Shown here one piece after another: positions 19,427 through 54,602 of a stretch of 64,000 bases of DNA. The stretch is from a virus. Within the stretch, counting starts at the first letter, position 1. Each line of letters starts with the position of its first letter. Under the pieces are notes generated by a model that saw only the letters and a program-made list of their open reading frames with translations, ran no database searches and was not told the origin of the DNA. The translations under genes were made by a program, and so were the position numbers. The stretch is from positions 44,123 through 108,122 of IMG/VR virus record IMGVR_UViG_3300036770_005214. One strand, given 5' to 3'.

Positions 19427-19729
19427 TCAGCCCTTCAGTTCGCTGCTCGGGCGGAACACAAACTTCTTCTTGGCCTTCACGCGGACCGTCTTGCCAAACG
19501 CTTTCATGGTCCGAGCCTTGGTCGCCCGCACGCGGAACGTCCCGAAGCCCTTGATGCGCACCGGATGGCCGCCCTTCACATGCGCCACGATCTGCTCAAA
19601 CAGGAAGCCAACGGCATCCTTCGCCGCCGTCTTCGAGCAGCGCATACCCGCACCGGTCATGTGCTCCGCAAGCTCACGAGCCAGCGTCACCGTCGTCGCA
19701 CTCTTCGTCTTCGCCTTCGCCTTTGCCAT
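19427..19729 (-). CDS. HU/IHF-like DNA-binding protein, 100 aa
   Basis: This small basic protein has the pattern of the HU/IHF family: an N-terminal Lys/Ala stretch, helices ending FLFEQIVAHVKGG, then the beta-arm core HPVRIKGFGTFRVRATKART and a C-terminal FRPSSELK close to the family FKPGKALK. It bends or packages DNA. The start is ATG 19729 with GGCGGAGG 7 bp upstream; an upstream extension has no ribosome site. It is divergent from the 94-aa gene at 19931. The upstream region carries GGGGGTATACG, a possible -10. The N-terminal Lys run suggests extra DNA contact. Confidence 0.82.
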   Translation of the reverse strand: MAKAKAKTKSATTVTLARELAEHMTGAGMRCSKTAAKDAVGFLFEQIVAHVKGGHPVRIKGFGTFRVRATKARTMKAFGKTVRVKAKKKFVFRPSSELKG

Positions 19730-35116: not shown

Positions 35117-38100
35117 CTAGCCTTCGGACGCACGCGGAAGCAACAGACCCACCGGCCGCTCCCCCTCTTCGTATTCCCGAAGGCGATACACCGAGTCTTT
35201 CAACTTCTCGTTGGGCCACTCGGAGATCGACTTCAGCACGAGCGCAATAAGGCTGCGAGGCAGACGGCGGTCCCACATCTTGCGCAGCGTCCAGACGAAC
35301 GACGCCAACAGCCGTTGGGCGGAGGATTCCGATAGGTCTCCTACGGCAACGACCTTCCCCATGAGATTGCGCCAGAACTCGAAGTTGCCCGACTCGAAGC
35401 TCTCGACGATGGTCGTGAAGTCCCCGTCATCCTTGGGCTGCATGACGCGCTCAAAGGCTTTCTCTGCGCTCTCGTAGTTGTTGTAGTATTTGGGATTGGA
35501 GAGGCAGGAGCAGAAAGCGATCTTGCCGTCCGGCAAACGAAGGAAGATGCCCGACTGGATGGGGCTGAAGTCCTCGCCCTCCACGAACACCCCCGCCCAG
35601 GAGAAGTAGGTCGAGGAGTACATCGCTTTTACTGCCTCGAAGAAAATACCCATTTCGTAGTAGGAAGAACCCTTCGCGGCGGCTTCCTGCACTTGCTGCA
35701 CGCTCAAGCGGTTCCAGGCCATCAGGGCGGCCTTGGCGGCCCGCTTGTGCCACACGTCCCGACGGGTCTCAATGAGCGCCTGGAAGATGGTGACGAGGTT
35801 CGGAGGCGCCTCCGCAAACTCCGTGCGCTCGGACCACGCGATCGGCTCCGCACGCTCGGCGACAAACGATGGTGCGCCAAGCTGCCCGAAGTTGGGCGGG
35901 TGGATGATAGACCAGTCCGGCGGATCGTCGCCTGGGGTTGCGGCCTTCGAGATATTCCCCGCGAACCCAGGGGCATAGAGGACAGCCGTGGAGAGTTGGA
36001 GCTTCCCTTCCTCGCGGAAGATGACGCGGAAGCTGGAGTCGCCGGGATAGACCTGGGCGATGTAGACCTTCTTCTCGCCCTCGGCGTTCCGCAAGAGGTT
36101 GCCGCGGTCGCGATAGACCACGCCGGTCACGAGGTCGGGGAACACCATCTGACCTGCCATCAGGCCTTCGATGGCTTCCGAGGGGATGCAGCTTAGCATC
36201 GCGGCGCTGGCGTTGCGCAGCGCGTAACGCACCCCATCCAGCTTCTCTTCCCGCTTCTTCTCGTCTTCCTGCTGGCGTGCGATGCCAACGGAGTTCAACG
36301 CGTTGCGGACCGCAGACCAAGCCTGCCGACGTGCGCTCATCCGACGCTGGTACTCTTGCTTCTTCCGAATGTCCGCGAACATCGCCTCGGCACGCTCGGG
36401 GTTGCGGACGACGAACCGGATCAACATCTCTTCACGGTCGGACCCGTCCGTCTGGAAGTTCGGCGCGTTGCCGGTGAAGATCTCATTCTGCCACTCGGCT
36501 TTCCCTTGCGCGGCGTTCATCAGGATGCCGTCGAAGGACTGCGAGGAGACGACGTTGTAGATCTTCACGAGCGACAGGGTGTTGCCTTGGCGGATGGCCC
36601 GCCCTTCCCGCTGCTCGATGGTCGCCGGCTCCCAGGTGTAGCTGAGGTGGTACAGCGAGCCCGTGCGGCGCTGGAGGTTCAAGCCCTCGGCCATCGCCCG
36701 ACTGGTCCCGATCAGAATGTCATAGGCCGGGGGACACGCGTCCTGCTCCCGCTCTTGGGTGATGGGATTGATCTCCTCATCCACGCCGTTGAAGCCACCA
36801 TTGACCCAGCCGCCCGTCTTCTCATCCCGCTTGCCGTTGGCGATCTCATCCCGCTTGGTCTTGTCCACGTTGCCCGTGATCGACTTGATCCGGTCGCGGC
36901 GGATGCCGGCCGCCACGAGGGCGTCAATCAGCCACCCGTGCGCCTCTACCGAGTCGAGGAAGATCAGCGTACCAAACGGGGGCAGGCCCGCCGCTGCCCG
37001 CTCCGCGTTGTCGGCCACAATCTGCCGAACGGTTTGCGTCAGCTTCTCGGGGAGCTTGGTGCTGATCAGGTCATTCGGGAGCGACAGCCCGCACGCTTCC
37101 ATGACGTCGAACAAGTGCGCATAGGCATCGAGGGCTGCATCGGACCGCTTCTTCTCCGCCTTCTTCTCTCCATCCTTCTCGTCTTTCCCGTCGTCCTTCT
37201 TGTCCCGCTTTAGCTTGGTCTCCCCTTTCTCCTGCATCCGTTTGAGGACACGCTGCTCCTCGGGCGTGTCGGTCACGTCGTAGTAGTCAAGGAGGATCAA
37301 CCGGGGATCGATGGCGACCTTGATCATCATGCTCATGCTGATCAAAGTGAGCGCGGCCTCTACATCTTCGGTGACCTGGACCTTCCGCAAAGAGTATGCG
37401 ACGTCTCGGAGTTCGGGGTCTTCGATCGTATCAACCCAACTCCCGCTCGCCGCAGCTTCCTTTCCGGCCGCCTTCCGGGCCATGCGAAGCTCCATCGCGG
37501 TCCGCAACGCGTCGGAGATCTTTGCCTGCTCGTCGCGCATCGTGACGGCCAGCGTCGTCTTGTCGACGTCCGGGAGCCGCAAGATGCCCGCGTTGGTCAG
37601 GTCGGCCTTGGTGCGCCGCTGCATGATGGGAGCGAGCGCCGACAACAACTCGCGGAGCGGGGCCTCCTTAAACTTCAGGACCCCGGGGCCCACCTTGGGC
37701 GTCAGGTCGAAGACGCCCGCCGTGTTGGTCTCCCCAATCTCCAGGTAGCGGTCGATAAACTCCTCTTTGTGCTGGATGCCCATCCGCGGCCACAGGTCAT
37801 CGCTGACGTACTCGCCGAGGTTGTACAACTCGATCGGGCTGTTCTTGAGCGGGGTGGCGGTCATCAGCATGACGCCCTGCCCATCTCCCCGAGCCTCAAA
37901 CAACTCGCGGGTCTTGAAGAGCAGGTCCCAACACAGCTTGGTGAGCCCGCCGCCCTCTTCTTCGTCGCCCTTCTCCTTCTTGGTCGAGCCCAGGAACGCG
38001 ATGGTGGACGCGCCCATCCGCGGGCTCGGATACCACAGGTTCTTGTAGTAGTGGGCCTCGTCCACGATGATCGCGGTGTCGGGGGCCAAGATGGCTTCCC

Positions 38101-41100
38101 AGGAGATCAGGTTCGCGGAGTCCTTCACCCGGAAGTCGGTCTCCCCCTTCGCCTGCCCTTCCGCAACCGCATCGAGCAGTTCGCGGTCCGTCGGCGTCAG
38201 CTTCGTGACCTGCTCCTCCAGGTTTTTCTTCTTCTTGAGGAGTTCTTCGTCCCTTGGCCGAAGGCGGAGCTTCGCCTCCGCCTCTTCGAGCTTCGCCTTC
38301 ACCACCCGCAGGAGCTTGAGACGCTGGCTAAGCCCGCGGCGGATCCAGGCCTGATCCATGATCAACTTGCGGGACTTCTCGCCGTCGGGGAAGACGTCGC
38401 GCAGGAACCCGGTGTGCCCGCAGATGAGCACGTCAAAGTGCCCGTCCGCGAACGCCCGCCACTTCTCGCTACGGGTCTCGGGGCTGTCATCCTTGCCCGC
38501 CGTGATCCCGACCAAGCAGATGCGGTAGTCGGGCAGGAAGCGAAGCGTCTGGGTGTACCACTGCGCGAGGGTGTTGTTCGGCACGACGATGACGACACGG
38601 CGAGCCCGCCCCGTCTGCCGCCACATCGCGATCGAAGAGAAGGACAGGAACGTCTTGCCCGCGCCCACGGCGTCGAAGATGAGCCCGCCGACGCGCTCAC
38701 GCTGCCACCGCACCGTCTGATTCTGGTGGGCGTGCAGGGTAATGTCGGGGTTCTGGCGAGCGAGGGGGTAGGGCTCGGTCGAGTACAGGCGCCCCCGCTG
38801 TTGGGGCATCCGCTCGGAGTAGATGACTTCGATCTGATCGAGGTAGGCCTGATTGTCGGGGATGGAGAGCCATCCAGTGAAACTCGCTTCGATGGCTTGC
38901 TCTTGCGCGACGCGCCCGGAGAAACCGATGTTGTTCTCAAACACCTGCTTCTGGCTCGACCGGCCAATGTCGACCTTCTCTTCGCGATTCAGGTAGCCCA
39001 GCACCTTCGCGGCGAGTTCGACCTCGGCTGCGCGTTGCGCCTCTTGGGTCCTCTTCATCTCTTTCGCGGTCTCATCCTTGGCACGAGCCTTGTCCCCCGT
39101 TTCGTACTCGTGCAGGGTCATCAACGAGGTGTCGGGCGAAACGGCGTCCTCGTCCTTCACTCGGATGTCGTAGCGAACGCCGTCGAAGGTGAGCAGGAAG
39201 CTGTTGTTGCCGCAGAACGACTTGACCCATTCGGCGACCGTCTCAATCGGGACGATGCCCGAGCGGGGAGCAACACCCACGCTCAATACGTTCTGGGCGC
39301 CGAGCAGGGCTTGCAGACGGGTCACCCCTTCCCGCAGGCGCTCCATCACCTCGGCGTTGTCGATCTCCGCCATATCAATGACCCGCGAGGTCACCGCGAG
39401 GCGATCGGTGAGGTTCCCCGTCAGGTAGTGTTCCTCGGTGTAGTACCGGAAGCCCTGCTCGCTCGGCTCGATAAAGATACCCGCACGGATCAACGAGAAG
39501 ACCAGCCCCTCATCCGCGTCCGGGTAGTGCCGTTGCAGATCTTGCTCGTCGCAGTAACCACGGAGCCGGCAGTAGTACGCCACGAGGTCAAAGAGGGACA
39601 GGTTCTCGGTGTTGCGCGGGTACTCCTCCACCGAGACGATGGGGGTCTCCTGCACGCCATCGCGGAGGTACTGCTCCCAACCCCGCCGGGCCTGCTCGGG
39701 GAGGTCGCTGAAGCCCTCCGAGACGTCCCCCCACTTGGCGGCGAAGTCTTGCAGGTCGGTCAGTAGCTCGACGCGGCCCACCTCTGCGAGCGTCAACTTC
39801 TCGGGCGAACTGAGCCGCTGGTAGTACACAAACAGGCGATTCCCCAGCAGACGAGCCGTGTGGTAGCGGTAGTCGGTCGGGGGACGCTTGGAGGGGCGTG
39901 CGGGTGCTGCGGTCGGGCGTCCCGGGCGGGTCGTCGTGGGCGCCGGGGCCGCAGTCGAGCCAGGGATCGACGAGACCATAAAGGGGACGCCGGGGTCGAC
40001 GCTGGTCCGGTCGGCGGCACGGAACACCGCCGCCAAGGCGATCGTGGGGTCGAAGGTCCCAACGATGGAGCCACCCCGGTAGCCTTCCTGGTAGGTTCCG
40101 AGGATGTTCGATTCCTCGAAGTGGTAGGGCACGCGAGACAGGTCGCGGGCTTCAGCGCCCGAGCGGTTCACTGCCCGCCGCGTCCACGCTTGGATGCAGA
40201 ACACGCCAGGGACGTCGGGGAACACTTCGGAGGGGAGCGCGACGGCTCCGCGGAAGTCCCCTTGGACCAGCATCTCCTCCCGGAACTTCATCTGGTCCTT
40301 GCTGGTCGCTTGGACCAACGACCACGGGGTCAGCGTGACGAGCACGCCACCAGGGCGCAGGAGCTTCAGAGACTTGAGGAGCGAGTAGTGCTCGGCCCGG
40401 TCGACGTCCTTCCGGTCCACCGCCAGCGCCTTGCGCGAGCGGTCCATGAAGGGCGGATTGGAGATCGCGAGGTCGAAGCCTTCGCCCTGGTAGCGGAAGG
40501 CCTCAAACATCGACGAGTGGACCTGCACCTCACGCCCTTGGAAGCGCAGGGCCAGCATCTCCGCGAGGCGAGGATCGTACTCGACGACCTGGAAGCGCAC
40601 GTCCGCGTTGTCGAGCGGCGTCGCGTCAATCATGCGGCCGATGCCCGCGGAGGGCTCCAGCACGTTGCGGATGGGCCCGCTCACCAGCCGGCGAGCGTAG
40701 TCCCACATGACCCCGCAGACGGCCAGCGGCGTGAAATACTGGGTGCGGATCGCCTCTTCGGTCGCGAGCACCGCCGGCGATGGGGCCCGACCCAGACGGG
40801 TGGCCTCGCTCCACGCGACGATGGCCTCCTCAAACTCGGGAGCGAACAACCCGGAGCCGGGGGAAAGCTGCGAGAGGAGACGGGTGAAGCCCCCCCAGCC
40901 CGTGTAGGCCCGAAGGGACCGCGCGAGCACCGCCCGACTGGTTGGGGCGCCTTCCTTGGCCGCTCGATAGGCCCGCAGCGCGTTCAGGTTCCAGCGCAGC
41001 CGGCGAGGCGTCGACCAGCGATGGAAATCCATCGAGTCGCCCGGGTCCTCGATATGCGTCCCCGTGTACCCCATGAGGGCCGCTTCAAGGTTCCCGCGCC

Positions 41101-41218
41101 GACGGCTGGCTTCCTTGGCCACATCGGACCAGGACGTGCAGCCCTCGGGCAGAGGACCAGACTGGCCCGAGAGCCACGCGACGAAACCGTCAAAGGTGGG
41201 CAGGGAAGGAGCGGTCAT
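35117..41218 (-). CDS. DarB-like adenine methylase/SNF2-type helicase fusion, 2033 aa
   Basis: The N-terminal third is an N6-adenine methyltransferase: SLRAYTGWGGFTRLL near residue 108, RTQYFTPLAVCGVMWDYAR, VLEPSAGIGRMID, and the catalytic motif SNPPF near 250. The C-terminal part is a superfamily 2 helicase: Walker A AVGAGKTF near 850, VDEAHYYKN near 1052, MTATPLKNSPIELYN, and TSRAMAEGLNLQ with REGRAIRQGN near 1505-1540. A long charged linker lies near 1330-1390. P1 DarB, of like build, is packaged and protects incoming DNA from type I restriction. I chose ATG 41218, inside the upstream spacer. It sits beside the virion genes, which fits packaging. Confidence 0.82.
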   Translation of the reverse strand: MTAPSLPTFDGFVAWLSGQSGPLPEGCTSWSDVAKEASRRRGNLEAALMGYTGTHIEDPGDSMDFHRWSTPRRLRWNLNALRAYRAAKEGAPTSRAVLARSLRAYTGWGGFTRLLSQLSPGSGLFAPEFEEAIVAWSEATRLGRAPSPAVLATEEAIRTQYFTPLAVCGVMWDYARRLVSGPIRNVLEPSAGIGRMIDATPLDNADVRFQVVEYDPRLAEMLALRFQGREVQVHSSMFEAFRYQGEGFDLAISNPPFMDRSRKALAVDRKDVDRAEHYSLLKSLKLLRPGGVLVTLTPWSLVQATSKDQMKFREEMLVQGDFRGAVALPSEVFPDVPGVFCIQAWTRRAVNRSGAEARDLSRVPYHFEESNILGTYQEGYRGGSIVGTFDPTIALAAVFRAADRTSVDPGVPFMVSSIPGSTAAPAPTTTRPGRPTAAPARPSKRPPTDYRYHTARLLGNRLFVYYQRLSSPEKLTLAEVGRVELLTDLQDFAAKWGDVSEGFSDLPEQARRGWEQYLRDGVQETPIVSVEEYPRNTENLSLFDLVAYYCRLRGYCDEQDLQRHYPDADEGLVFSLIRAGIFIEPSEQGFRYYTEEHYLTGNLTDRLAVTSRVIDMAEIDNAEVMERLREGVTRLQALLGAQNVLSVGVAPRSGIVPIETVAEWVKSFCGNNSFLLTFDGVRYDIRVKDEDAVSPDTSLMTLHEYETGDKARAKDETAKEMKRTQEAQRAAEVELAAKVLGYLNREEKVDIGRSSQKQVFENNIGFSGRVAQEQAIEASFTGWLSIPDNQAYLDQIEVIYSERMPQQRGRLYSTEPYPLARQNPDITLHAHQNQTVRWQRERVGGLIFDAVGAGKTFLSFSSIAMWRQTGRARRVVIVVPNNTLAQWYTQTLRFLPDYRICLVGITAGKDDSPETRSEKWRAFADGHFDVLICGHTGFLRDVFPDGEKSRKLIMDQAWIRRGLSQRLKLLRVVKAKLEEAEAKLRLRPRDEELLKKKKNLEEQVTKLTPTDRELLDAVAEGQAKGETDFRVKDSANLISWEAILAPDTAIIVDEAHYYKNLWYPSPRMGASTIAFLGSTKKEKGDEEEGGGLTKLCWDLLFKTRELFEARGDGQGVMLMTATPLKNSPIELYNLGEYVSDDLWPRMGIQHKEEFIDRYLEIGETNTAGVFDLTPKVGPGVLKFKEAPLRELLSALAPIMQRRTKADLTNAGILRLPDVDKTTLAVTMRDEQAKISDALRTAMELRMARKAAGKEAAASGSWVDTIEDPELRDVAYSLRKVQVTEDVEAALTLISMSMMIKVAIDPRLILLDYYDVTDTPEEQRVLKRMQEKGETKLKRDKKDDGKDEKDGEKKAEKKRSDAALDAYAHLFDVMEACGLSLPNDLISTKLPEKLTQTVRQIVADNAERAAAGLPPFGTLIFLDSVEAHGWLIDALVAAGIRRDRIKSITGNVDKTKRDEIANGKRDEKTGGWVNGGFNGVDEEINPITQEREQDACPPAYDILIGTSRAMAEGLNLQRRTGSLYHLSYTWEPATIEQREGRAIRQGNTLSLVKIYNVVSSQSFDGILMNAAQGKAEWQNEIFTGNAPNFQTDGSDREEMLIRFVVRNPERAEAMFADIRKKQEYQRRMSARRQAWSAVRNALNSVGIARQQEDEKKREEKLDGVRYALRNASAAMLSCIPSEAIEGLMAGQMVFPDLVTGVVYRDRGNLLRNAEGEKKVYIAQVYPGDSSFRVIFREEGKLQLSTAVLYAPGFAGNISKAATPGDDPPDWSIIHPPNFGQLGAPSFVAERAEPIAWSERTEFAEAPPNLVTIFQALIETRRDVWHKRAAKAALMAWNRLSVQQVQEAAAKGSSYYEMGIFFEAVKAMYSSTYFSWAGVFVEGEDFSPIQSGIFLRLPDGKIAFCSCLSNPKYYNNYESAEKAFERVMQPKDDGDFTTIVESFESGNFEFWRNLMGKVVAVGDLSESSAQRLLASFVWTLRKMWDRRLPRSLIALVLKSISEWPNEKLKDSVYRLREYEEGERPVGLLLPRASEG

Positions 41219-41234
41219 GGCGCGGGCACTCCGG

Positions 41235-41564
41235 TCAGGCTGCTTCGCCAAGGGTCTCGACGTAGCGGGAGTAGTAGGGACGCAGCATCGCGATGACCTG
41301 ATCGTCCGTCATCTCGGACAAGGGGACCACCGCTGGGGGAGTGTACCCCGGAAGTGTGATGCCCTTGCGCTGGTAGATACGCGCACCGTACCCGTTCACC
41401 AAGGACAGGTAGTGGTTGATGATCAGCTTCTCGATCCCCGGCGCCGCTGCCGGGCTCTTCGCTCGGAGAGCATTGACCACGTTGACGATGGTCTGCGCAA
41501 GCCCTGGAGCCCCGCTCGCAGTATACAGGGCTAGGATGCCCTCAATAGCCTGTTCGTAGTTCAT
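41235..41564 (-). CDS. Hypothetical helical protein, 109 aa
   Basis: This is a small soluble helical protein (EQAIEGILALYTASGAPGLA, LRAKSPAAAPGIEKLIINHY) ending in a helix with MLRPYYSRYVETLGEAA. It is probably co-transcribed with the 498-aa gene (8 bp upstream) and with the methylase/helicase (16 bp downstream). No family was recognised. It may be a partner of the large enzyme, but only position suggests this. Confidence 0.58.
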   Translation of the reverse strand: MNYEQAIEGILALYTASGAPGLAQTIVNVVNALRAKSPAAAPGIEKLIINHYLSLVNGYGARIYQRKGITLPGYTPPAVVPLSEMTDDQVIAMLRPYYSRYVETLGEAA

Positions 41565-41572
41565 CTGCTACC

Positions 41573-43069
41573 TCACCGATACCGACGGGTGCGGAGGGAT
41601 TCTCCCCCAAAGGCGGCTTGTACTGCTGCGGCCCCTTGATCCAAAGCGCCCTGGAGTGCTGCGAGCAGTGCCGCCACTTCAGCGTCACCCGAGACTGCGG
41701 GCGCCGGTGCGGGAGCCGGTGCGGGGGTCATGGTCATGGGGGGAGGCGCCACGGTCACGACGGGGGGCGGCGGCTCCTCGATCACAACCGGAGCGACCGG
41801 GACCGACACGGGCGCCTGCACGGGCCGCGCCGGCACGTCCGCATCGAACTGCGGAAGGAAGGACGGGGCCACCTTGGCGATGTGCTTTCGGAAGTTGGCA
41901 CGAACCACCGGGATCATTCCGGCAAGGAACGCAGCCCCACGTCCATCGGCCACCGCCGCACGGTAGTCGTTCAGCATCGCGTCAAACTTGCTGGGCGCGG
42001 CTGGTGCGGCTGGTGCGGGCGGAGGGCGAACCGGTGCGGGCGGAGGGCGGACCGGTGCGGGGGTCGGAGCGGGCGCCGGGGTCGGAGCGGGCGCCGCGGC
42101 CCGGTAGGCCTTCGCGGCGTTGTAAAGCTCCCGCACCTCGGGCGAGGCCTTCGACGCCATGAGGCCGCCGATGCCCCGGCGATCGGGGATCGAAAGGCTG
42201 CCAAGCCAAGCGTTCAAGTGGGCGAGGTCGTTGCCGGTCTTGCGGGCCTCGGCGAGGAACTGGGTGATCAAGCTCGCCTCCTGGGGGGCTACCGCTTGCT
42301 GCTTGATGCTGTCCATGACGGCCTTGAAGACCTCGCGGACTTCGGAGGGAGTGTCCCCCCGCCGCATCTTGCCAGCGAGCACCGCACGGGTCGGACCCGG
42401 CATGGCCATGACGTAACTCACCGCGCCGCCAAAGCCCCCTGCGTTGTAGGCATCGGCGAACGCCACGACGACCGGATCGGGCTGCGCCATGACGGGAGGC
42501 GCCTCGACGGCCATCGGGGGCGCCTCGACGAACACGGGAGCGGCTTGCACGACTGGCGGCGAGTAGACGACGGTGGGCGTCGGCGCTTCGACCATCGCGA
42601 GGGCCGGGGGAACCTCGGGAGCGGGGCGCTGACGGCGGGCGGGGCGCTGGCCAGCCGGCTTGGTCGGCTTCGCCACGTCGCGACGCAGCCCCATCTCGGC
42701 GCTGGTCATCGGGAGCGGCGAGCACCGAGCGGGGGGAACGCCCTCGGCCGGCTCGCGGTGCTGCTCGGTGGTCCCGTTGATGTGGTAGGTCTTCGACTCG
42801 AACTCACCCGTCGTGTCGGTGAAGTCGACGCGAAGCTCCACATCATACGCGAGGCACTCGCCCACACGCTCCCGCACGACCTGGAGCGCCTGCGCCTTGC
42901 TGGTCAACTCGACCTGCCCGCTCTGCGCCTCCAGCTTGGTGCCGCTGCGGTTGTACGCAAGCTGCTGGACTACCCAGACCCACTTGGGGCGGTTCCGCGC
43001 ACCCTCCGCCGTGACGGGCTCGATGGCGAGGATCAACAAGGCCTTGGCGTTCGGATGACTCGGCTTCAT
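41573..43069 (-). CDS. Pro/Ala-rich multidomain protein, 498 aa
   Basis: The N-terminal 100 residues are an alpha/beta domain (KALLILAIEPVTAEGARNRP, VQQLAYNRSGTKLEAQSGQV, VDFTDTTGEFESKTYHI). Its plan resembles, by eye, the triplicated domain of the 654-aa basic protein just upstream. The middle has helical units joined by long Pro/Ala/Val linkers (APVRPPPAPVRPPPAP near 350-365). The end has a helix ALLAALQGALDQGAAAVQAA and an Arg-rich tail. The start ATG 43069 has only a weak ribosome site. A promoter (TTGACC) lies about 50 bp upstream. It may bind DNA or act as a scaffold. Confidence 0.6.
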   Translation of the reverse strand: MKPSHPNAKALLILAIEPVTAEGARNRPKWVWVVQQLAYNRSGTKLEAQSGQVELTSKAQALQVVRERVGECLAYDVELRVDFTDTTGEFESKTYHINGTTEQHREPAEGVPPARCSPLPMTSAEMGLRRDVAKPTKPAGQRPARRQRPAPEVPPALAMVEAPTPTVVYSPPVVQAAPVFVEAPPMAVEAPPVMAQPDPVVVAFADAYNAGGFGGAVSYVMAMPGPTRAVLAGKMRRGDTPSEVREVFKAVMDSIKQQAVAPQEASLITQFLAEARKTGNDLAHLNAWLGSLSIPDRRGIGGLMASKASPEVRELYNAAKAYRAAAPAPTPAPAPTPAPVRPPPAPVRPPPAPAAPAAPSKFDAMLNDYRAAVADGRGAAFLAGMIPVVRANFRKHIAKVAPSFLPQFDADVPARPVQAPVSVPVAPVVIEEPPPPVVTVAPPPMTMTPAPAPAPAPAVSGDAEVAALLAALQGALDQGAAAVQAAFGGESLRTRRYR

Positions 43070-43115
43070 CGGAGGACCCCGAAAACAGTTGGGGGGCAAG
43101 TGGCCCGCTATAGAC

Positions 43116-43144
43116 CCCTTACCCCCCTTCTATCCGTAGGTCAA
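43116..43144 (-). promoter_or_regulatory. Promoter TTGACC-N17-TAAGGG
   Basis: On the minus strand TTGACC (43144-43139) and TAAGGG (43121-43116) are 17 bp apart, and the -10 follows GGGGGG. It lies upstream of the 498-aa gene and would drive it together with the 109-aa and methylase/helicase genes. Confidence 0.55.
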
Positions 43145-43195
43145 TCCCTTCACAGGTCCGACCGACCTAGCCCCGCCTGCTGCGAGGCTTTACGG

Positions 43196-45160
43196 TCAAC
43201 GCTTCGACGTCCGACGCTTGGGGGCGGACCGCTTCTTGACCGCGCCGTGCTTCCGACGAGCCGTGCGGAGCGCCGCCTCCGCCACCACATCGCCAACCGC
43301 GGGGAGAGCCGCAGAGGACTTCGCCTTGGTGGTCTTGGCCTTGGTGGTCTTGGCCTTGGTGGTCTTGGCAGGCCGCGCCTTGATGCTGCGCTCCCCGGGG
43401 AGCTTGCGCTTGGGGTTCTCCCGAACCCAGTTGTCCTGCGCAATACTCAAGGGGTAGCCCATCTTAATCTGGGCCGCGATGTACTTCTGGTAGCTGGTCC
43501 TGCGGGTTCCGGCCTTCGCCTTGGAGGCCTTGGTGCTCTTGCCCTTGGTGCTCTTGCCCTTGGTGGTCTTCTTGATCACTTCGGTCTTCGCAGTCTCGCC
43601 CTTGTGAGCCCGCCAAGCCGCCGCCGCTTCCTTCATGGACTTGCCAGCCTTACGCTGCGCGGCCACGAACTTGTTGTAGGCGCTGACCTTGCGGGTTCCA
43701 GACTTCGCCTTGGAGGCCTTCGGCTTCGCGGTCTTCGGCTTCGAGGTCTTCGGCTTCGCGGTCTTCTTCACAGTCTTCTTGGCGGTCGTGCCGGACTGCG
43801 CACGCCATGCGGCTGCCGCCTGCGCCATCGTCTTGCCAGCCTTCATCTGGGCCCCGACGAACTTGTTGTAGGCGCTGACCCCAGCCCCGGTCGTCAGTTC
43901 CGAGAGCCCAGCGGCCATCACAGCTTCATCCCACTCCCTCTTCTCCCTTTCAGTCATAGCGTTGGAACGACGACGACGAGCACCCGCTCCCAGCCCCCCG
44001 CCCACTGGGCGCCCTGGCAGATTGTTGACCCACTCATCGAGATACTTGTTGTAGGCGCTGACCTTGCGGGTTCCCGTCTTGCGGGTCTTGCGGGTCTTGC
44101 GGGTCTTGCGGGCCTTACGGGCCTTGGGCGCCGCCTCCGCGGCGGTGGTGGTCTTGGCCTTGGTGCTCTTCGCCTTCCGACGTACCGTGACCTTGGTTCC
44201 AATCCGCTTCTTCGTGGACTTGGTGCAGACGTAGCGGGTGCCTTCCTTGGTGTAGGTGCAGACCTCCTTCGAGCCCTCCACCGTCATCACCACCTGGACG
44301 CCAGTGCGGCACCAAGCGCGGATGAGGCGCTGGAGACCCTTCTTCTGGGCCGCAGCAGAGCCTTCCAGCGACCCCGTGACGGTCTTGGTGCCCCGACGCA
44401 CGCTCACAGAGCGAACGCCATCCTTTGCGGCTCCGATGTGGATCCGAACCGACGTAATCTTCCTGGCCATAGCTCGCTCCTTATTGCCTTCTTCGGCGGC
44501 GATGTGGGTTGCCCGACGGCTCCCGGCAAGGGTGCTCGACGAGACGATGCGGTCACCCCGCTTGACGTAGGTGTACTGCCGTCCAGACTCCTCGTCCTCG
44601 ACAAGGACCTTGGAACCTGGAGTAGCCCACTTTTCGATCAGTTCTTGCATCACAGAACGCTGCGCCCTCGCATCGCCCATGAGCGGAGTGTTGCTGTACT
44701 TGTCTTTCCCAGTGCTGGGATCGGTGTAAGTGACCTGCACAAAGCGCAGGCGCTTGCCGTCCTCTTTCGTGACGACCATGCGGACCAAGTAGACGTGGCC
44801 CTCAACGACCTTCCGCTTGGCTTTCTTGGGGCTCTTGCCAGCAGAGTCGGCGCTCTTCATGGACCCTCCGCGCGGGGACACCGGGGCGAAACTGCCATCG
44901 TCCTGCCGGCCGTAGGTCACGGTCTTTCCAGTCGCCTCGTAGGTGACGATGACCTTATTGCCCTTGTACCTCTGAATCTGATCTTCAAGGTCCGCTCGCC
45001 GTTCGGCCTCCGTATTGCCCCGGATAAAAGTCCCTTGGCCAGAGATCCGCTCTCCCCGTGCGCCCAGTTGTTGAACGCTCACATTCCGCCGTAGGTTGTG
45101 AACGCTCTTGCCCACGGACATCCGAACCAAACTGACCGCGACTGACTTCCGTGCAGGCAT
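43196..45160 (-). CDS. Lys-rich nucleoprotein candidate with four SAYNK-type units, 654 aa
   Basis: This is a very basic protein. Residues 9-94, 124-206 and 237-312 are three copies of a domain of about 80 aa (each with an early strand LVRM/VRIH, a helix, and a TVTYG/YTYVK/CTYTK strand). Then come Lys/Thr/Arg/Ala linkers (KARKTRKTRKTRKT) and four SAYNK-type units: SAYNKYLDEW, SAYNKFVGAQ, SAYNKFVAAQ and TSYQKYIAAQ, three continuing to a conserved Trp such as AAAAWRA. The unit resembles HMG-box/YABBY-type DNA-binding helices of eukaryotes and their viruses. The protein may condense viral DNA. ATG 45160 has GGGAGATCGG before it. Confidence 0.65.
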   Translation of the reverse strand: MPARKSVAVSLVRMSVGKSVHNLRRNVSVQQLGARGERISGQGTFIRGNTEAERRADLEDQIQRYKGNKVIVTYEATGKTVTYGRQDDGSFAPVSPRGGSMKSADSAGKSPKKAKRKVVEGHVYLVRMVVTKEDGKRLRFVQVTYTDPSTGKDKYSNTPLMGDARAQRSVMQELIEKWATPGSKVLVEDEESGRQYTYVKRGDRIVSSSTLAGSRRATHIAAEEGNKERAMARKITSVRIHIGAAKDGVRSVSVRRGTKTVTGSLEGSAAAQKKGLQRLIRAWCRTGVQVVMTVEGSKEVCTYTKEGTRYVCTKSTKKRIGTKVTVRRKAKSTKAKTTTAAEAAPKARKARKTRKTRKTRKTGTRKVSAYNKYLDEWVNNLPGRPVGGGLGAGARRRRSNAMTEREKREWDEAVMAAGLSELTTGAGVSAYNKFVGAQMKAGKTMAQAAAAWRAQSGTTAKKTVKKTAKPKTSKPKTAKPKASKAKSGTRKVSAYNKFVAAQRKAGKSMKEAAAAWRAHKGETAKTEVIKKTTKGKSTKGKSTKASKAKAGTRRTSYQKYIAAQIKMGYPLSIAQDNWVRENPKRKLPGERSIKARPAKTTKAKTTKAKTTKAKSSAALPAVGDVVAEAALRTARRKHGAVKKRSAPKRRTSKR

Positions 45161-45213: not shown

Positions 45214-45244
45214 AACGGTAGCCCCCCATTGAGGAGCTACCGTT
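45214..45244 (-). terminator. Hairpin terminator after the 221-aa gene
   Basis: AACGGTAGC pairs with GCTACCGTT (9 bp) around a 13-base loop, and on the minus strand is followed by TGCAGTTT. It lies 45 bp downstream of the stop at 45290 and 53 bp before the start of the 654-aa gene, so it probably ends the virion operon. Confidence 0.55.
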
Positions 45245-46321: not shown

Positions 46322-46339
46322 ACAACCCTTATGGGCTAC
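46322..46339 (-). promoter_or_regulatory. GTAGCCC-N4-GGGTTGT element before the winged-helix gene
   Basis: On the minus strand GTAGCCC ATAA GGGTTGT overlaps the stop of the 150-aa gene. A second related copy (GTTACCCCATAAGGGATG) runs into the start codon at 46286. The core CCCATAAGGG is the same in both. They may be operators of the winged-helix protein. Confidence 0.4.
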
Positions 46340-46788
46340 CAGCGCCGGCCATTCCGCTGGGGGATGGGATCGTTGATCTCCACCGTTTCGCCGTCCGTAT
46401 CGCGCAGGAGTGCGCCGACCTGCACGCCCCCCGAAGAGGTCGCCCGGCGACTCCGCGAACGCCCCGACTCGGGCGTGAGCAGCACTTGACCCGTGTCCAA
46501 CCGCTCCGCCTTCCACCGCCGGCCTCGTTGCACGGCGATGCGGAGACCTTCCACGATCTCCTTCTCTTGCCAATCGTCCCGCGGAGCCACCGCAGCGATG
46601 GGCGTCTCGTACTCGCCGCCTTCCCAGTAGGCAGGGGACCAGCCGCCCGGACGGTCCGTCGTGTAGACGCTCGCCGAGGCGTTCGCCGCCGAGAAGCCGC
46701 CGGGGTTGACCGAGTTCGCGGTGATGTACCCCGCGTGCTCACCGATCCGTGCGAGCATCTGCCCATTCACCCGTCCGATGCGCCGCAT
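46336..46788 (-). CDS. Virion-block protein, 150 aa, N-terminal MRRIGRV
   Basis: The N-terminus MRRIGRVNG matches the start of the 198-aa protein (MRRIGQVG) and of two others (MQRIGMI), the recurrent motif of this block. A second form, VQVGALLRD, is near the C-terminus. The body is soluble with SVNPGGFSAANASASVY and a strand/helix region. ATG 46788 follows GGGGAGTCGTG and overlaps the stop of the next upstream gene (TGATG), so translation is coupled. It is probably a virion component. Confidence 0.6.
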   Translation of the reverse strand: MRRIGRVNGQMLARIGEHAGYITANSVNPGGFSAANASASVYTTDRPGGWSPAYWEGGEYETPIAAVAPRDDWQEKEIVEGLRIAVQRGRRWKAERLDTGQVLLTPESGRSRSRRATSSGGVQVGALLRDTDGETVEINDPIPQRNGRRW

Positions 46789-47096
46789 CACGACTCCCCA
46801 CGCGCCGGAACCCGCGGCGCTTGCACAGGGTAACCCATGAACGTGGTAGGAGGCTTGCCCTCCGTCCACCGCTCTACCACGAGTGTCAGCTTGCCCTGCG
46901 AAAGTCCCGTGCGGACCTTGGCACGCTTCCCTCCCAACCCTTCCAGCCTTCGCGCCGCGATGCGAGGACGACGCCGCCCCGCCCGGTCCGCGATGCGCTT
47001 CCGCCGTGCGTCCCGAGCTTCGGTGACGTTACGGCTGAAGTCGAAAGCCGTGTTGATGCTCGTGAGCACCAGCACGATGTTGGTGAGGAAGCCCAC
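46788..47096 (-). CDS. Basic protein with N-terminal hydrophobic helix, 102 aa
   Basis: The N-terminus has a hydrophobic stretch (GFLTNIVLVLTSINTAFDF) and then a strongly basic part (ARDARRKRIADRAGRRRPRI), so it could sit in a membrane with the basic part toward DNA. The end is strand-like (SQGKLTLVVERWTEG). GTG 47096 follows GGGGGAGTGACGC. It lies 3 bp after the 92-aa gene and is coupled to the 150-aa gene. No family was recognised. Confidence 0.57.
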   Translation of the reverse strand: MGFLTNIVLVLTSINTAFDFSRNVTEARDARRKRIADRAGRRRPRIAARRLEGLGGKRAKVRTGLSQGKLTLVVERWTEGKPPTTFMGYPVQAPRVPARGES

Positions 47097-47099
47097 GCG

Positions 47100-47378
47100 T
47101 CACTCCCCCGCGTCGCCGCGAGAGGGCCAATCCAACAGGTTGTAGTTTTGGTACAACTTGTCGATGTCCACGCCGACGTCCGCCAGCTTCTCTTCCTTCC
47201 GCCGGAGCTTCGCGACTTCGCGCTCAATCCGAATGTGCTGCTTGAGGACGTCCTGGGTCCGCCGCCGAATCTTGTTGACCTCGCGGACCTCCGCCGGATC
47301 CCAGAAAGCGCCCACCGCGTTGTGTTGCCACATGCCTAACTCCTCTAGTTGTTTGTACTTTTCTTGGAAGTCGTACAC
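47100..47378 (-). CDS. Helical coiled-coil protein, 92 aa
   Basis: The protein is helical and charged, with NKIRRRTQDVLKQHIRIERE and KLRRKEEKLADVGVDIDKLY heptads, and no membrane segment. It starts at ATG 47378, overlapping the stop of the 311-aa gene, so translation is coupled. It is in the virion operon. No family was recognised. Confidence 0.57.
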   Translation of the reverse strand: MYDFQEKYKQLEELGMWQHNAVGAFWDPAEVREVNKIRRRTQDVLKQHIRIEREVAKLRRKEEKLADVGVDIDKLYQNYNLLDWPSRGDAGE

Positions 47379-48313
47379 TACACATCCGCGAAGATGACCA
47401 CCGAACCGCCGTCCGTTGGCTCCACTTGCAAAGCACCGCGAGCCTTCGTGTTGATGCCGTACTTCAGCGCCTTGGCAAGGGCCAGATTGTTAATCATCGT
47501 CGCCTTGTCGGGAGCATGGGTCACCGTGACCGCCGAGCCGTCAAAGCGGTTGTTGTCGACGATGACCGTGCTCTCCCGAGGTTCCGAGACGGGGTAGCCG
47601 TTTTCCGCCAGAATGGTGCTGAACTCGGTCACCGCATCGGCCACCGCCCCGACGTAGCCCGTCCCAGGGGTAGCCGGCGTGGTCACATAGCGGTTGATCA
47701 GGAAGCCCACGAGCGCCCCGATCCCAGTCGCCACCCCGCGGTTCTTGCGGGCCACCGCATAACCAACCCCAGCCCCCACGAGCGAGTACAAGAGCGGGCC
47801 TGCTTCAGTCCCGAACCCCGCCGCCGCCGCGTCCTTCTTCTTGAACTTCTCCCGCACCGAGGTCACCGCCTTGGCGGTCCCTTGCTTCACGCTAGAGGCT
47901 GCTTTCGCAGTCCCTTGCTTCACACTGTAGGCCACCTTGTCAGCTACCTCGCCAGACTTGCGGAAGAACAGGCGACCGCCGACAGCGTGCAGGCGCCCAT
48001 AGGGTCCGGGCACCTTGTCGGCGCGCAAGAGCGCGGCCGTAGTCTCGTTCACCTTGTCGGACAAGTGCTGAAGCTCTTTGTAGAAGGGAGTACGGCTTTG
48101 CTTCCCATTCGGGTCTTTCTTCAGAACGTAGGCGGAGAAGAACGCGTTTAGTTTCGAGACGGCTCTTTCGATCTCCTGGAGATTCCCGGAGCCCATGCCG
48201 TACTCGTACATGGAAGTCTGCAAACCCACCAGCGGAGACGGATCAGCGTCGTAAGCGGTATTGTAGAAGTCCTCGACAGCGCCCACCGAGCTAATCATCC
48301 CGATGCGTTGCAT
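47378..48313 (-). CDS. Glycine-zipper virion-block protein, 311 aa, N-terminal MQRIGMI
   Basis: It starts MQRIGMISSVG. A helical N-terminal domain follows, then a repeated VKQGTAKA (residues 131-138 and 142-149), then a glycine-zipper membrane part (LLYSLVGAGVGYAVARKNRG and ATGIGALVGFLINRYV, near 174-210), and a C-terminal alpha/beta domain of about 100 aa. The first 210 residues match the 191-aa gene upstream (LLYSLMGAGVGYAVARKNRG), so the pair are tandem paralogues and only this one has the C-terminal domain. It is probably a virion membrane protein. Confidence 0.62.
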   Translation of the reverse strand: MQRIGMISSVGAVEDFYNTAYDADPSPLVGLQTSMYEYGMGSGNLQEIERAVSKLNAFFSAYVLKKDPNGKQSRTPFYKELQHLSDKVNETTAALLRADKVPGPYGRLHAVGGRLFFRKSGEVADKVAYSVKQGTAKAASSVKQGTAKAVTSVREKFKKKDAAAAGFGTEAGPLLYSLVGAGVGYAVARKNRGVATGIGALVGFLINRYVTTPATPGTGYVGAVADAVTEFSTILAENGYPVSEPRESTVIVDNNRFDGSAVTVTHAPDKATMINNLALAKALKYGINTKARGALQVEPTDGGSVVIFADV

Positions 48314-48339
48314 GTGCGTCTCTCCAGGTCAGTAAGGGA

Positions 48340-48915
48340 CTATTGCCGTAGGGCTTGGTTGGCCAGGAAGCCCACGAGCGCCCCAACACCAGCGGCCATT
48401 CCGCGGTTCTTGCGGGCCACCGCGTAGCCGACACCCGCTCCCATGAGCGAGTACAACAGCGGCGCCGAGTCAGACCCGAACCCAGCGGACTCGGCCCCCT
48501 TCCCAGCGCGGGGCTGGACCCCTGGACCCAGAGAGACCCGCGCTCCAGGATCCCGGAAGGACAGACGACCGTTGGTAACGGTAAGACGCCCATGTGGGCC
48601 GGGCACCCCGTCGCGTCGCAGATCGAACGCCACGAGTTGATTCACTGCGGCAGCGTATTCTTCAAGCTCTTTATAGAACAAGTCACGAGGCTTGCCCGAG
48701 GCCTCTTTCTCTGAAACGTAGTCAGAAAAATAATCGTTCACTTTCTTGATCTCAAACTGAACATCCCCGATGCCCCTTTCGCCTCGGTACATCATAAGAA
48801 TGGTCTGCTTCAAGGAATCGTAGGCTCTTCCCCCAGGACCGGGGGAGATAGCGTTCTCCCAAGCGTACAATCCCCTGGCCTCGCTCACTGACCCAATCAT
48901 TCCGATGCGTTGCAT
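48340..48915 (-). CDS. Glycine-zipper virion-block protein, 191 aa, N-terminal MQRIGMI
   Basis: It starts MQRIGMIGSVS and shares the domain order of the first 210 residues of the 311-aa protein: a helical part with VNDYFSDYVSEKEASGKPRD, DGVPGPHGRL, then a C-terminal glycine zipper LLYSLMGAGVGYAVARKNRG and VGALVGFLANQALRQ. It ends at that membrane part. The pair arose by tandem duplication. The role is probably a structural membrane protein of the virion; no named family was recognised. Confidence 0.62.
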   Translation of the reverse strand: MQRIGMIGSVSEARGLYAWENAISPGPGGRAYDSLKQTILMMYRGERGIGDVQFEIKKVNDYFSDYVSEKEASGKPRDLFYKELEEYAAAVNQLVAFDLRRDGVPGPHGRLTVTNGRLSFRDPGARVSLGPGVQPRAGKGAESAGFGSDSAPLLYSLMGAGVGYAVARKNRGMAAGVGALVGFLANQALRQ

Positions 48916-48930
48916 GTGCAGATCTCCGAG

Positions 48931-49269
48931 TCAGTAGCAGGAGCTACTGCCGTAGGGTTGTGGCCCACAATGTAGCGCATCGTAGACAAGGGATTCCATG
49001 CGACGGCGGCCCGGTCCGCCCATCCCGCCGAGGTCAGCGTGGAGGAGGTAACCGTCCTCGTCGAAGGTGAAACGCTCCGGGAAGCGATCTTCCAAGAGCG
49101 AGGCCAGTTGGATGCGGCGAGCACCCAAGCGGAGGATACGCGCACGGTACGGCCCGAGGTTGCGCCCCACCGCTCGCGCACGCTGGTACTTCGACGATGC
49201 GACGTCGAGGCTGCGCAGCACCAGCATGTAGCGGTTGAACAGGGCCATCTGCTCTCGTTCCGTTTGCAC
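48931..49269 (-). CDS. Hypothetical basic protein, about 112 aa
   Basis: This is a helical, Arg-rich protein (NRYMLVLRSLDVASSKYQRA, RARILRLGARRIQLASLLED) with a C-terminal LLHADLGGMGGPGRRR and two Cys. I use GTG 49269 because TAGGGG lies 6 bp before it; ATG 49248 (MALFNRYM) is also possible. It follows the protease-like gene by 8 bp. It may bind nucleic acid. No family was recognised. Confidence 0.52.
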   Translation of the reverse strand: MQTEREQMALFNRYMLVLRSLDVASSKYQRARAVGRNLGPYRARILRLGARRIQLASLLEDRFPERFTFDEDGYLLHADLGGMGGPGRRRMESLVYDALHCGPQPYGSSSCY

Positions 49270-49277
49270 GCGAACCC

Positions 49278-50174
49278 CTAGATAGAGCGGCCGGCGGCAC
49301 GCCGACGTCGTGACTGGTCCATGTACCAACGGGGCACCGGCATCCCGAGCACCGCTGACGGGTCGTCGTAGACCACGCTTCCATCCGGCTGACGGATCTT
49401 CGTCACCGCATGGAACAGCCGCACGCCCGAGCCGCCGCCCATCCCGGAAGCGGGGCCCTCAATCAAGCGGCAGTACACGCTGGCGTCGTGGCCAGCGTTG
49501 ATCAGTTCGCCCGCACGGTAGGCGGCGAGGCCTTCGCAGTCGTCATGCCCGCGGCGAGCGATCTCTTCGGCATCCCACCACAACTCGGGCGACCCCTCGG
49601 TCTGATACCGGATGCTCCCCGAGTACAACCGGGGGAGACCCTTCGCCTCGATCTGCTTCGCGTTGTGACGTGCGATGGCGTTGTTGATGTCGACCACCGG
49701 AGACGCCGTGGAGTCGTCGATGGTCAGCATCATGTACTCGTTGGTCCGGCCCCGGTCGCCCGGCACCCGAACCCGCTCGCCCCCCGCGAACCCCATCACG
49801 GCGCCCGAGCCCGAGACGTACACGGGGCGACCGCTCTCGAAGCCGATGCGGGCCGCCGAGTCCTCGCCATAGATGCGTTCTTCGGCAGTCCGCCACGCCG
49901 CCAGCGTGCCCGCGGTCACACAGCCATCCTTGGAGGCCGTCACCGCGTCCCGCCACACGCCGTCGGTGCAGTTCACACGGCTCGGCGCACGGGGCACACG
50001 CCCCGCCCGGATCGAGCGCATGTTCCGCTGGACAAGGCCTTCCATGACGTCCGCGAGCGCCTGCTGACCACCATGCACGTTCAGCACGACCCGCATCCCG
50101 TCCTGCCGTGGGGGCAGTGGATGGGGGTCACGCTTCAGGATGGAGCCAGTCAGGCCGATCGCGATCTCGTTCAC
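49278..50174 (-). CDS. Transglutaminase-like cysteine peptidase, 298 aa
   Basis: The C-terminal half has the papain/transglutaminase arrangement: Cys213 in HDDCEGLAAYRAGELI, His255 in RLFHAVTKI, and Asp271 in VVYDDPSAV. This triad is seen in bacterial transglutaminase-like cysteine proteases of phages and hosts. The N-terminus reads NEIAIGLTGSILKR, close to the start of the 620-aa protein (ESIAIGRLVG), the recurrent motif. A peptidase inside the virion operon could process precursors (inference). ATG 50174 has only a weak ribosome site. The middle 100 residues are not recognised. Confidence 0.62.
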   Translation of the reverse strand: MNEIAIGLTGSILKRDPHPLPPRQDGMRVVLNVHGGQQALADVMEGLVQRNMRSIRAGRVPRAPSRVNCTDGVWRDAVTASKDGCVTAGTLAAWRTAEERIYGEDSAARIGFESGRPVYVSGSGAVMGFAGGERVRVPGDRGRTNEYMMLTIDDSTASPVVDINNAIARHNAKQIEAKGLPRLYSGSIRYQTEGSPELWWDAEEIARRGHDDCEGLAAYRAGELINAGHDASVYCRLIEGPASGMGGGSGVRLFHAVTKIRQPDGSVVYDDPSAVLGMPVPRWYMDQSRRRRAAGRSI

Positions 50175-50198
50175 GGAAACCCCCGCCCGGATGGGCTG

Positions 50199-50525
50199 TC
50201 AGTAGTGACGGCGGTGGTGGAGACGACCGACGTACATGCCCTCAGCGGCGGCGGGAGCAGCCTCCTCCGCGTTTGCTTTCGCTTCCGCGATGAGCCGGTC
50301 AGATTCCAAACGCTCCTCGGACTTCCGACGGCCCAGGACCGGGACCCCTGCTGCGGGCTTGCCCATGATCATGGGGAGGACGGTCTTGCCGGCCACAGCA
50401 CCGATGACGCCGTACAGGGCGGCGCGGGGCAGGGTGCCCTTGCCCGAGCCCTTCATCGCGTAGCTGGCACCGACACCGATGGCGGCGCCGATCAAGAGGT
50501 TCCGGTCTTTGAGCATATCCAACAT
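50199..50525 (-). CDS. Glycine-zipper protein, 108 aa, ending EGMYVGRL
   Basis: The N-terminus is a glycine-zipper hairpin (LLIGAAIGVGASYAM, ALYGVIGAVAGKTV), followed by an Arg/Glu helix and an acidic Ala run leading to EGMYVGRLHHRRHY at the very end. The N-terminal half aligns by eye with that of the next gene (50563), a paralogue. The last residues fit the recurrent motif. It is probably a small virion membrane protein with a C-terminal docking peptide (inference). Confidence 0.6.
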   Translation of the reverse strand: MLDMLKDRNLLIGAAIGVGASYAMKGSGKGTLPRAALYGVIGAVAGKTVLPMIMGKPAAGVPVLGRRKSEERLESDRLIAEAKANAEEAAPAAAEGMYVGRLHHRRHY

Positions 50526-50562
50526 GGTCTTCTCCTAAGGGGCGGAAGGGGGTGAGAGGGGA

Positions 50563-51330
50563 CTAGAAGTAGATCTGACCGATGTAGTGGAAGCCTTCGG
50601 CTTCGGCCTCATCGCCTTCCGCAACCAACTCGTCGATTGCTGCTTGCCGACGGTCGGCGGCCATCTGAGCGAGGATGTCATCGTCGTCTTCATCGCCTTC
50701 CGCGATCAGGTCAGCGGTTCGCCGCTCTGCGAGTTGGCGCTGAGCTTCCGCTGCATCCTCTGCTGCTTTACGGGCGGCTCGCTGGGCGTTTTGGGTCTCC
50801 CGACTACCCCGTTCCTCCGCTTCACGGGCGGCCTCCAACTCTGCCGCAGCTTTGCGCTGCAACTCCTCCGCAGCCCTGAGGGCGTCTGCTGCTTTCCTCG
50901 CCTCACGAGCGGCCCGGTCGGCATCTCGTTGGGCCTCCGCAGCTTCCAGGTTCAACGCTTGGCGCGCTTGCAGTTCTTCAGCCTTGGTCAAAGCACGATT
51001 CGCACCTGCCCTGCGGATGGCCGTCACGGGGGACATCGCGGCCTTTTTGGCAGCGACCGCAGCCTTGTTCACCGCGATCGTGCGACGACGAGCGGCCTCT
51101 AGCTTGGCCTGCTTGGCGTTCTGCTCGGCGAGCGCCAACTGCTCCTGGGGCGACAGAGGGCGCTGGGGCAGGAGCATCCGGCCGGCAGCCGCCCCGATGG
51201 CGCCGAACACCGCAGCGCGGACGAGGGATCCCTTTGCAGGTCCGCCGACTGCGTAGCTGGCGACAACACCCAACGCGAGACCCGTCAGGGTGCTTGGGTT
51301 GGTCAGTCCGAGGGATTCGAGGGTGGCCAT
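50563..51330 (-). CDS. Glycine-zipper/coiled-coil protein, 255 aa, ending EGFHYIGQIYF
   Basis: It has the same glycine-zipper N-terminus as the 108-aa protein (LTGLALGVVASYAV, AVFGAIGAAAGRM). A very long Ala/Arg/Glu coiled coil (about residues 70-215) and an acidic stretch follow. The last residues EAEGFHYIGQIYF carry the recurrent motif. The start is ATG 51330. It is probably a membrane-anchored virion protein with a long rod. The coil is Ala-rich and may be partly disordered. Confidence 0.6.
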   Translation of the reverse strand: MATLESLGLTNPSTLTGLALGVVASYAVGGPAKGSLVRAAVFGAIGAAAGRMLLPQRPLSPQEQLALAEQNAKQAKLEAARRRTIAVNKAAVAAKKAAMSPVTAIRRAGANRALTKAEELQARQALNLEAAEAQRDADRAAREARKAADALRAAEELQRKAAAELEAAREAEERGSRETQNAQRAARKAAEDAAEAQRQLAERRTADLIAEGDEDDDDILAQMAADRRQAAIDELVAEGDEAEAEGFHYIGQIYF

Positions 51331-51344
51331 GATGGTTCCTGCGG

Positions 51345-51791
51345 CTAGTAGGAGGTCTGGTTCAACACGCGAGCGGCCTGCGCACGGTGCTGGGGACGGA
51401 TGTAGGACGCGAACTTGGTGGCCGTGGCGGCGACGACCGCGGCGTCATCGGCGGGGCCGGGGACGTCCACGGGGTTGACGATGTAGAGCAGGGCGCCCGC
51501 GATCGACAGCTTCGCAGCCATGGGGGTCTCGGGGTCAAGCATGACGTAGTACAGCGCGACCACTTCGTTCGAGAAGGGGACGTGACCCGCGATGGCGAGA
51601 AGCCGGGGAAGGACCCGCTGCGCCTTGCCGAGATCTTTCGTCGAGGCCGCTGGGACGGACAGACGGTCGAGCGAGGACGAGCCCCACGACGCCACCGACA
51701 GCCGCTCGGGCAGCCCGTAGAAGCCCCCAGACGCCCGCTTGCCGCGGGAGCCTACCGAGAGCCGTTCCGGGAGCCCGTAGAAGGTCGCCAT
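51345..51791 (-). CDS. DUF1232-like protein with repeated FYGLPERLSV, 148 aa
   Basis: The C-terminal half fits the DUF1232/YkvA pattern: VALYYVMLDPETPMAAKLSI, then AGALLYIVNPVDVPGPADDA. The N-terminal 45 residues hold FYGLPERLSVGS and FYGLPERLSVAS, 20 residues apart, and a third related DRLSVPAAS. The first copy runs on as RLSVGSRGKR, near to encapsulin cargo peptides (LTVGSLRR type). ATG 51791 overlaps the stop of the next upstream gene (TGATG). DUF1232 function is unknown. Confidence 0.62.
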   Translation of the reverse strand: MATFYGLPERLSVGSRGKRASGGFYGLPERLSVASWGSSSLDRLSVPAASTKDLGKAQRVLPRLLAIAGHVPFSNEVVALYYVMLDPETPMAAKLSIAGALLYIVNPVDVPGPADDAAVVAATATKFASYIRPQHRAQAARVLNQTSY

Positions 51792-52252: not shown

Positions 52253-52255
52253 GTT

Positions 52256-52852: not shown

Positions 52853-52862
52853 GATGGACTCC

Positions 52863-53618: not shown

Positions 53619-53668
53619 GTGGGTAGAGCCTCAAGGGCCGATAGATCAGAACAGACAGAGGGAGGTAA

Positions 53669-53711
53669 GAAAAAAAGCGGCCGAGCACCCCGTTCGGGAC
53701 ACTCGGCCGCT
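53669..53711 (-). terminator. Intrinsic terminator with T7 run after the 227-aa gene
   Basis: On the minus strand AGCGGCCGAG and CTCGGCCGCT form a perfect 10-bp stem around a 16-base loop, followed directly by seven T. This is the clearest intrinsic terminator in the window. It separates the 227-aa gene from the 251-aa gene. Confidence 0.88.
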
Positions 53712-53761
53712 AGTCAGCCCGGCGGATGGGGAAGTCCCCCGGTCAACGGGCCGAGGGTCGA

Positions 53762-54598: not shown

Positions 54599-54602
54599 TC
54601 AG
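54574..54602 (-). promoter_or_regulatory. Promoter candidate CTGACG-N17-TAGCCC
   Basis: On the minus strand CTGACG (54602-54597) and TAGCCC (54579-54574) are 17 bp apart, with TTGGG before the -10. It starts at the end of the 268-aa gene and would drive the 227-aa gene through a leader of about 125 bases. Support is modest. Confidence 0.4.

Follow-up and report, generated by a model that had tools for sequence, protein, structure and literature searches.

The sequence, repeats, charge, predicted secondary structure and gene context of a virus-encoded, Lys-rich protein, each established directly, lead us on balance to regard it as a large cationic, non-specific DNA-condensing (architectural) protein, whose charge and composition suggest that it binds and condenses DNA. 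Chromatin-like packaging, the role that a sequence-only reading of the DNA had proposed, is the best reading and a plausible one, given the protein's charge and architecture, its predicted flexible Lys/Thr/Ala linkers, its gene neighbourhood and the precedent of the ascovirus protein P64. In the proposed mechanism, the Lys/Thr/Ala linkers and tail would neutralise DNA phosphate non-specifically, like H1-like tails and P64; the tandem two-helix units, set ~63 aa from one another, would be short modules for docking or for contact with DNA; and three βββαβββ domains would provide self-association or attachment to other proteins. We infer that the viral genome is probably its target at a late stage of infection; the protein may be packaged in the particle.

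The gene, its charge and its modular layout

The gene lies on the minus strand (43196..45160) of the window, a 64,000-base stretch that corresponds to bases 44123-108122 of a virus record totalling 108,122 bases, with a G+C content of 62-71%. The 654-aa open reading frame (ORF) that had been noted at this position, with no strand given, is indeed present, from an ATG at 45160 to a stop at 43196. An SD-like GGGAG is found 5-6 bases 5' of the ATG; an in-frame TTG at 45172, which overlaps this GGGAG, is an unlikely start. When codon usage is scored with other genes as the training set, the minus frame alone is positive (+0.37 bits per codon; the other five frames are all negative), and thus the gene is real; its GC3 is 0.80. 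A longer, overlapping plus-strand ORF (41618-45094) was ruled out as a real gene by codon usage. Between the gene and its upstream neighbour there is a perfect 9-bp hairpin, AACGGTAGC...GCTACCGTT (45214-45244, minus strand), and the 125-nt intergenic RNA 5' of the gene has a folding z of -2.8.

The protein (71 kDa) has a pI of 11.0 (11.03) and a net charge of +109, with a composition of K 13.9%, A 13.0%, R 10.1% and T 9.8%. Among the 70 genes of the window, whose mean charge is ~0 per residue, only the product of an HU homologue has a higher density of positive charge. The C-terminal half carries a net +77, and the linkers within it, which are built on 9- and 15-nt tandem repeats, carry a net +0.31 to +0.42 per residue. 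At +109 per molecule, it would take ~2,000 copies to neutralise the 216,000 phosphates of the 108-kb genome in full; consequently, a few hundred copies could condense only part of it. The first two N-terminal repeats, R1 and R2, are no more than mildly basic, and for this reason the N-terminal half may serve another purpose.

The N-terminal repeats had been described from the sequence as a triplicated domain of about 80 aa. This is borne out, with a length of ~80-90 aa: shuffle z-scores support the R2-R3 (z=12.7) and R1-R2 (z=8.4) alignments (0/2000 shuffles each), and the direct R1-R3 alignment is marginal (z=3.3, p=0.01). In a 658-aa numbering of the protein, R1 (44867..45145, minus strand), the most divergent copy, comprises residues 10-102, R2 (44528..44797, minus strand) residues 126-215, and R3 (44207..44455, minus strand) residues 240-322. 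R2 and R3 are both predicted to be βββαβββ, the AlphaFold2 model of the repeat (R3; pLDDT 81) having been made with the three copies as a three-row alignment. A profile of R1-R3 picks up those three copies and nothing else in the record, and Foldseek gave no match to the fold at E≤0.001 in PDB or BFVD. Searches with R3 suggested dsRBD, RNase-H and DUF1508-like topologies, none of them significant; a DUF1508/dsRBD-like fold was set aside, as PF07411 had no match at E<=10 and Foldseek returned nothing significant. The βββαβββ repeat is apparently an uncharacterised, undescribed domain.

The C-terminal half begins with a basic linker between R3 and the first unit (44069..44206, minus strand; net +19 in 45 aa), an (RKT)n sequence with 9-nt tandem repeats at 44076-44126. 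Four units of a "SAYNK" type had been proposed to follow. All four are present, but the fourth reads SYQK rather than SAYNK, and the first is degenerate. Unit U1 (43883..44068, minus strand) starts GTRKVSAYNKY, and a different helical stretch replaces its second half; U2 (43790..43882, minus strand) reads SAYNKFVGAQMKAGKTMAQAAAAW, U3 (43598..43693, minus strand) SAYNKFVAAQRKAGKSMKEAAAAW, and U4 (43394..43504, minus strand) SYQKYIAAQIKMGYPLSIAQDNW. The later Trp was correctly assigned to three of the units, since U1 has no second helix where the others have theirs. The U2-U3 alignment is the strongest (z=20), followed by U2-U4 (z=8.7), U1-U3 (z=8.3) and U3-U4 (z=7.7); that of U1 with U4 is marginal (z=2.7). 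The unit Tyr falls at residues 374, 435, 499 and 561 (658-aa numbering), a spacing of 61-64 aa. Lys-rich linkers separate U2 from U3 (43694..43789, minus strand; K 41%; 15-nt tandem repeats at 43703-43766) and U3 from U4 (43505..43597, minus strand; K 34%), and a basic tail, (KTTKA)n ... KKRSAPKRRTSKR, closes the protein (43199..43393, minus strand).

In an AlphaFold2 single-sequence model, U2-U4 form short two-helix hairpins of ~30 aa, with helices at 429-444 and 449-460 (U2), 498-508 and 513-524 (U3), and 560-570 and 575-585 (U4, with pLDDT up to ~89). The linkers mostly have pLDDT <50 between these ordered units and are thus predicted to be disordered. The charge of +109 with a pI of 11.0, linker disorder between ordered units and the regular array at 61-64 aa all argue for a DNA-condensing protein. 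The same charge and disorder would also fit a protein that binds DNA or RNA in the infected cell and is not packaged, acting in takeover of the host nucleoid, in transcription or in the organisation of a replication compartment. Bacterial H1-like K/A/T tails do belong to nucleoid proteins; the gene, however, shares its same-strand run with a putative virion-gene cluster and a DarB-like gene (see below), and such an in-cell role is possible, though rather unlikely.

Relatives of the two-helix units

The units had been likened to HMG boxes and YABBY domains, and an affinity with eukaryotes and their large viruses had been suggested from this. Neither claim is supported. Profiles for HMG_box (PF00505), YABBY (PF04690) and DVNP (PF19060) have no match in the record at E≤10, Pfam scans of the whole protein and of the isolated units find neither an HMG box nor YABBY, and comparison of the units with HMGB1 is null. 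An HMG box is an L-shaped, three-helix fold of ~70 aa, whereas the unit consists of two helices of 11-12 residues in ~30 aa and is then followed by a disordered linker. Of the helical, HMG-like fold that had been predicted, only the first part stands: the modelled unit is helical, but it does not appear to be an HMG box.

The likeness to YABBY, and to GCNA, consists of a Tyr-Asn-Lys/Arg start, a later Trp and two helices; in the units it takes the form SAYN[KR]F[IV] ... W. When a YABBY domain sequence was aligned to the units by hhalign, the probability was 34%; in a profile search with this same sequence, 19 of 2000 shuffled versions scored as well as the real one, so the resemblance is near chance. 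Moreover, the distance from Tyr to Trp is ~10 residues shorter in the units than in YABBY, no third helix is predicted, and the N-terminal C2C2 zinc finger of YABBY is absent from the protein, both by sequence and by Pfam scan. The literature does describe a "two-helix HMG box" for GCNA/YABBY (PMC5098910), and since the term is already in use there, a remote link of the units is possible; in addition, yabby-like proteins are virion proteins of ascoviruses (PMC8361023). Nevertheless, with null profiles, a score that shuffled sequences equal and a nearest relative found in a phage, it is highly improbable that the SAYNK units represent genuine HMG/YABBY-type domains taken from eukaryotes or their large viruses. 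At the level of sequence, the YABBY resemblance is a short common pattern rather than family membership.

A profile of the units found a single contig, IMGVR_UViG_3300017593_001363 (L017), from an unrelated tailed phage. One of its proteins (L017:2347-3627) contains two tandem units, SAYTKFMGTCMRGGKSMKECVAEW and SAWSKCIGEQRKAGKSMKEAAAAC, which follow the pattern SA[YW]xKxxxxxxxxGKSMKE; identity is 68% over 25 aa. The U2-U4 profile scores 41.6 bits against this protein, with both units matching, against 11 for the best unrelated ORF among the fetched loci; the E-value of 4.5e-9 (for a nominal 1e6 sequences) is optimistic, since the contig was selected by a motif scan. The presence of two tandem copies makes chance unlikely. 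The gene is flanked by those for an XkdF-type protease (PF14550, E 2e-30) and an SU10-type major capsid protein (PF17236, E 2e-7), and the position between protease and major capsid protein is usually that of the scaffold. Thus, the closest relative to which the unit could be linked is a phage head-cluster protein, and this sole motif relative found weighs against a eukaryotic or large-virus affinity. The Lys-rich protein defines a two-helix unit that it has in common with a phage head-gene cluster.

The unit's occurrence, twice, in a protein at the scaffold position counts in favour of the DNA-condensing reading. It also raises the alternative that the Lys-rich protein is mainly a capsid-assembly or internal scaffold-like protein, in which capsid or membrane proteins would be the partners of the units, and the basic linkers would be only tethers or recruit DNA incidentally. 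The placement of the sole motif-level relative between protease and capsid genes favours this idea. However, the L017 protein, itself unmatched in the phage collection, is otherwise unlike the Lys-rich protein: it has a zinc ribbon, a coiled-coil-like end and acidic stretches between its units, and no βββαβββ domain. In addition, since this relative came from a motif search, the units may have been put to a different use, and a scaffold would not usually carry a net +109. A mainly scaffold-like function is therefore quite unlikely.

Beyond the unit, the Lys-rich protein is, by sequence, an orphan without recognisable relatives. Searches that relied on exact 8-residue seeds or on tblastn with low-complexity filtering, and that may miss distant relatives, yielded no homologue of the whole protein from IMG/VR, 50,697 phage genomes, 72,556 plasmids or 84,980 GTDB genomes; the searches that were run gave no family or structure match and no homologue of known function, which counts against the DNA-condensing reading. 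Several candidates were rejected: eight matches to a SAYNKFV DNA pattern, all judged to be chance; a match in Microbacterium phage Gack (E=7) near an SprT gene, on the opposite strand; a chance match in Klebsiella phage KP12 (E=5); and the meaningless matches returned by Foldseek for the full, low-confidence model.

Known DNA-condensing proteins

The closest parallel in layout is P64 of the ascovirus SfAV-1a (ORF048), a bipartite protein of 64 kDa with a pI of 12.2, which was shown both to bind and to condense the DNA of the virus and which virions contain in abundance (PMC6163548). The two proteins are of one size class (64 vs 71 kDa), have a very high pI and are orphans in databases, and both consist of an N-terminal repeated folded domain (four copies in P64 vs three here) followed by tandem basic repeats. 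This match in bipartite layout and size argues for DNA condensation. In P64, however, the repeated domain is a vs2C-adaptor (pfam08793) and the basic repeats are Arg/Ser, whereas the Lys-rich protein has βββαβββ domains, Lys/Thr/Ala linkers and helical hairpins. The two proteins were not found to be related in sequence, and pfam08793 had no match in the Pfam scans of the protein and its units. The function of P64 has been tested; that of the Lys-rich protein is a prediction, and it would be P64-like in mode at most.

The long K/A/T(P) tails of bacterial H1-like Lys/Ala proteins (HC1/HC2, AlgP) and of linker histones are expected to bind DNA non-specifically. Pfam models for HC1/HC2, AlgP and linker histone have no match at E<=10, and the tails of the Lys-rich protein differ from those of the H1-like proteins in being broken by regularly spaced folded units. 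The virus also encodes an HU/IHF-family protein of 100 aa (19427..19729, minus strand; PF00216, E 5e-15) with a basic N-terminal tail. It is likewise a virus-encoded, basic architectural DNA-binding protein, yet it is unrelated in sequence to the Lys-rich protein; PF00216 (Bac_DNA_binding) matches only this separate gene, 19427-19729. Against the DNA-condensing reading, the HU/IHF-family protein could itself fill the architectural job.

Gene neighbourhood and the virus

The Lys-rich gene sits within a long minus-strand run. Downstream and co-directional with it is a gene (35117..41251, minus strand) for a DarB-like methyltransferase/SNF2 helicase of 2044 aa, an N6-methyltransferase/SNF2 protein with 25-29% identity to phage DarB-like proteins; a seed search found no close relative of it in IMG/VR. 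Since DarB of phage P1 is a virion protein that is packaged (PMC9024508), the presence of a DarB-like gene in the same-strand run favours the DNA-condensing reading. Upstream, from 46 to 59 kb, the run encodes small proteins without matches, several of which are Gly/Ala-rich and hydrophobic. These look like virion proteins, by sequence character rather than by match.

Several small proteins encoded at 46336-55393 (minus strand) begin with M(R/Q)RIG, and several in this same interval contain the motif [DE][AS]EG[LF]..IG (EAEGLVHIGNV, DSEGLIHIGTV, EAEGFHYIGQI), which is possibly a common cleavage or sorting signal of virion proteins. Two adjoining paralogues, 47378-48313 and 48340-48813 (minus strand), have a common Gly/Ala hydrophobic stretch, LLYSL.GAGVGYAVARKNRG.A.G.GALVGFL. 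Also in the gene run, at 57483-59327 (minus strand), is a 614-aa protein with a long acidic D/E tail, opposite in charge to the Lys-rich protein and its possible partner.

The virus, which comes from environmental DNA, probably infects bacteria: its GH46 enzyme, peptidoglycan-binding protein and transglycosylase suggest a bacterial host. Profiles for Terminase_6N, Phage_capsid (HK97) and Phage_portal have no match in the 108-kb record; since the record is possibly incomplete and three families were tested, the virus cannot be called tailless. In most well-known phages, naked DNA is compressed by a motor and small cations, and many large eukaryotic viruses have basic core proteins. A stronger claim, and an unlikely one, is that a bacterial virus lacking recognisable terminase, portal and HK97 capsid genes uses a dedicated, chromatin-like core protein for packing its genome, in the form of a 71-kDa chain in which repeated domains of a new fold and helical hairpins at even spacing are carried on H1-like tails; if true, there would be a DNA-condensing family without counterpart in characterised phages. 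A large, modular, H1-like condensing protein in a probable phage would be an independent and directly testable case.

Many other genes of the 108-kb record are orphans, and searches for sister viruses by means of a structural protein, an 846-aa protein, polA and the DarB-like protein found none, only polymerases of ~25% identity. A row of large proteins (L002:3560-11121, minus strand) has a common N-terminus, ALRSP..AHSYWG.F...LP....LE.GDTAFV; these are likely receptor-binding spikes or fibres.
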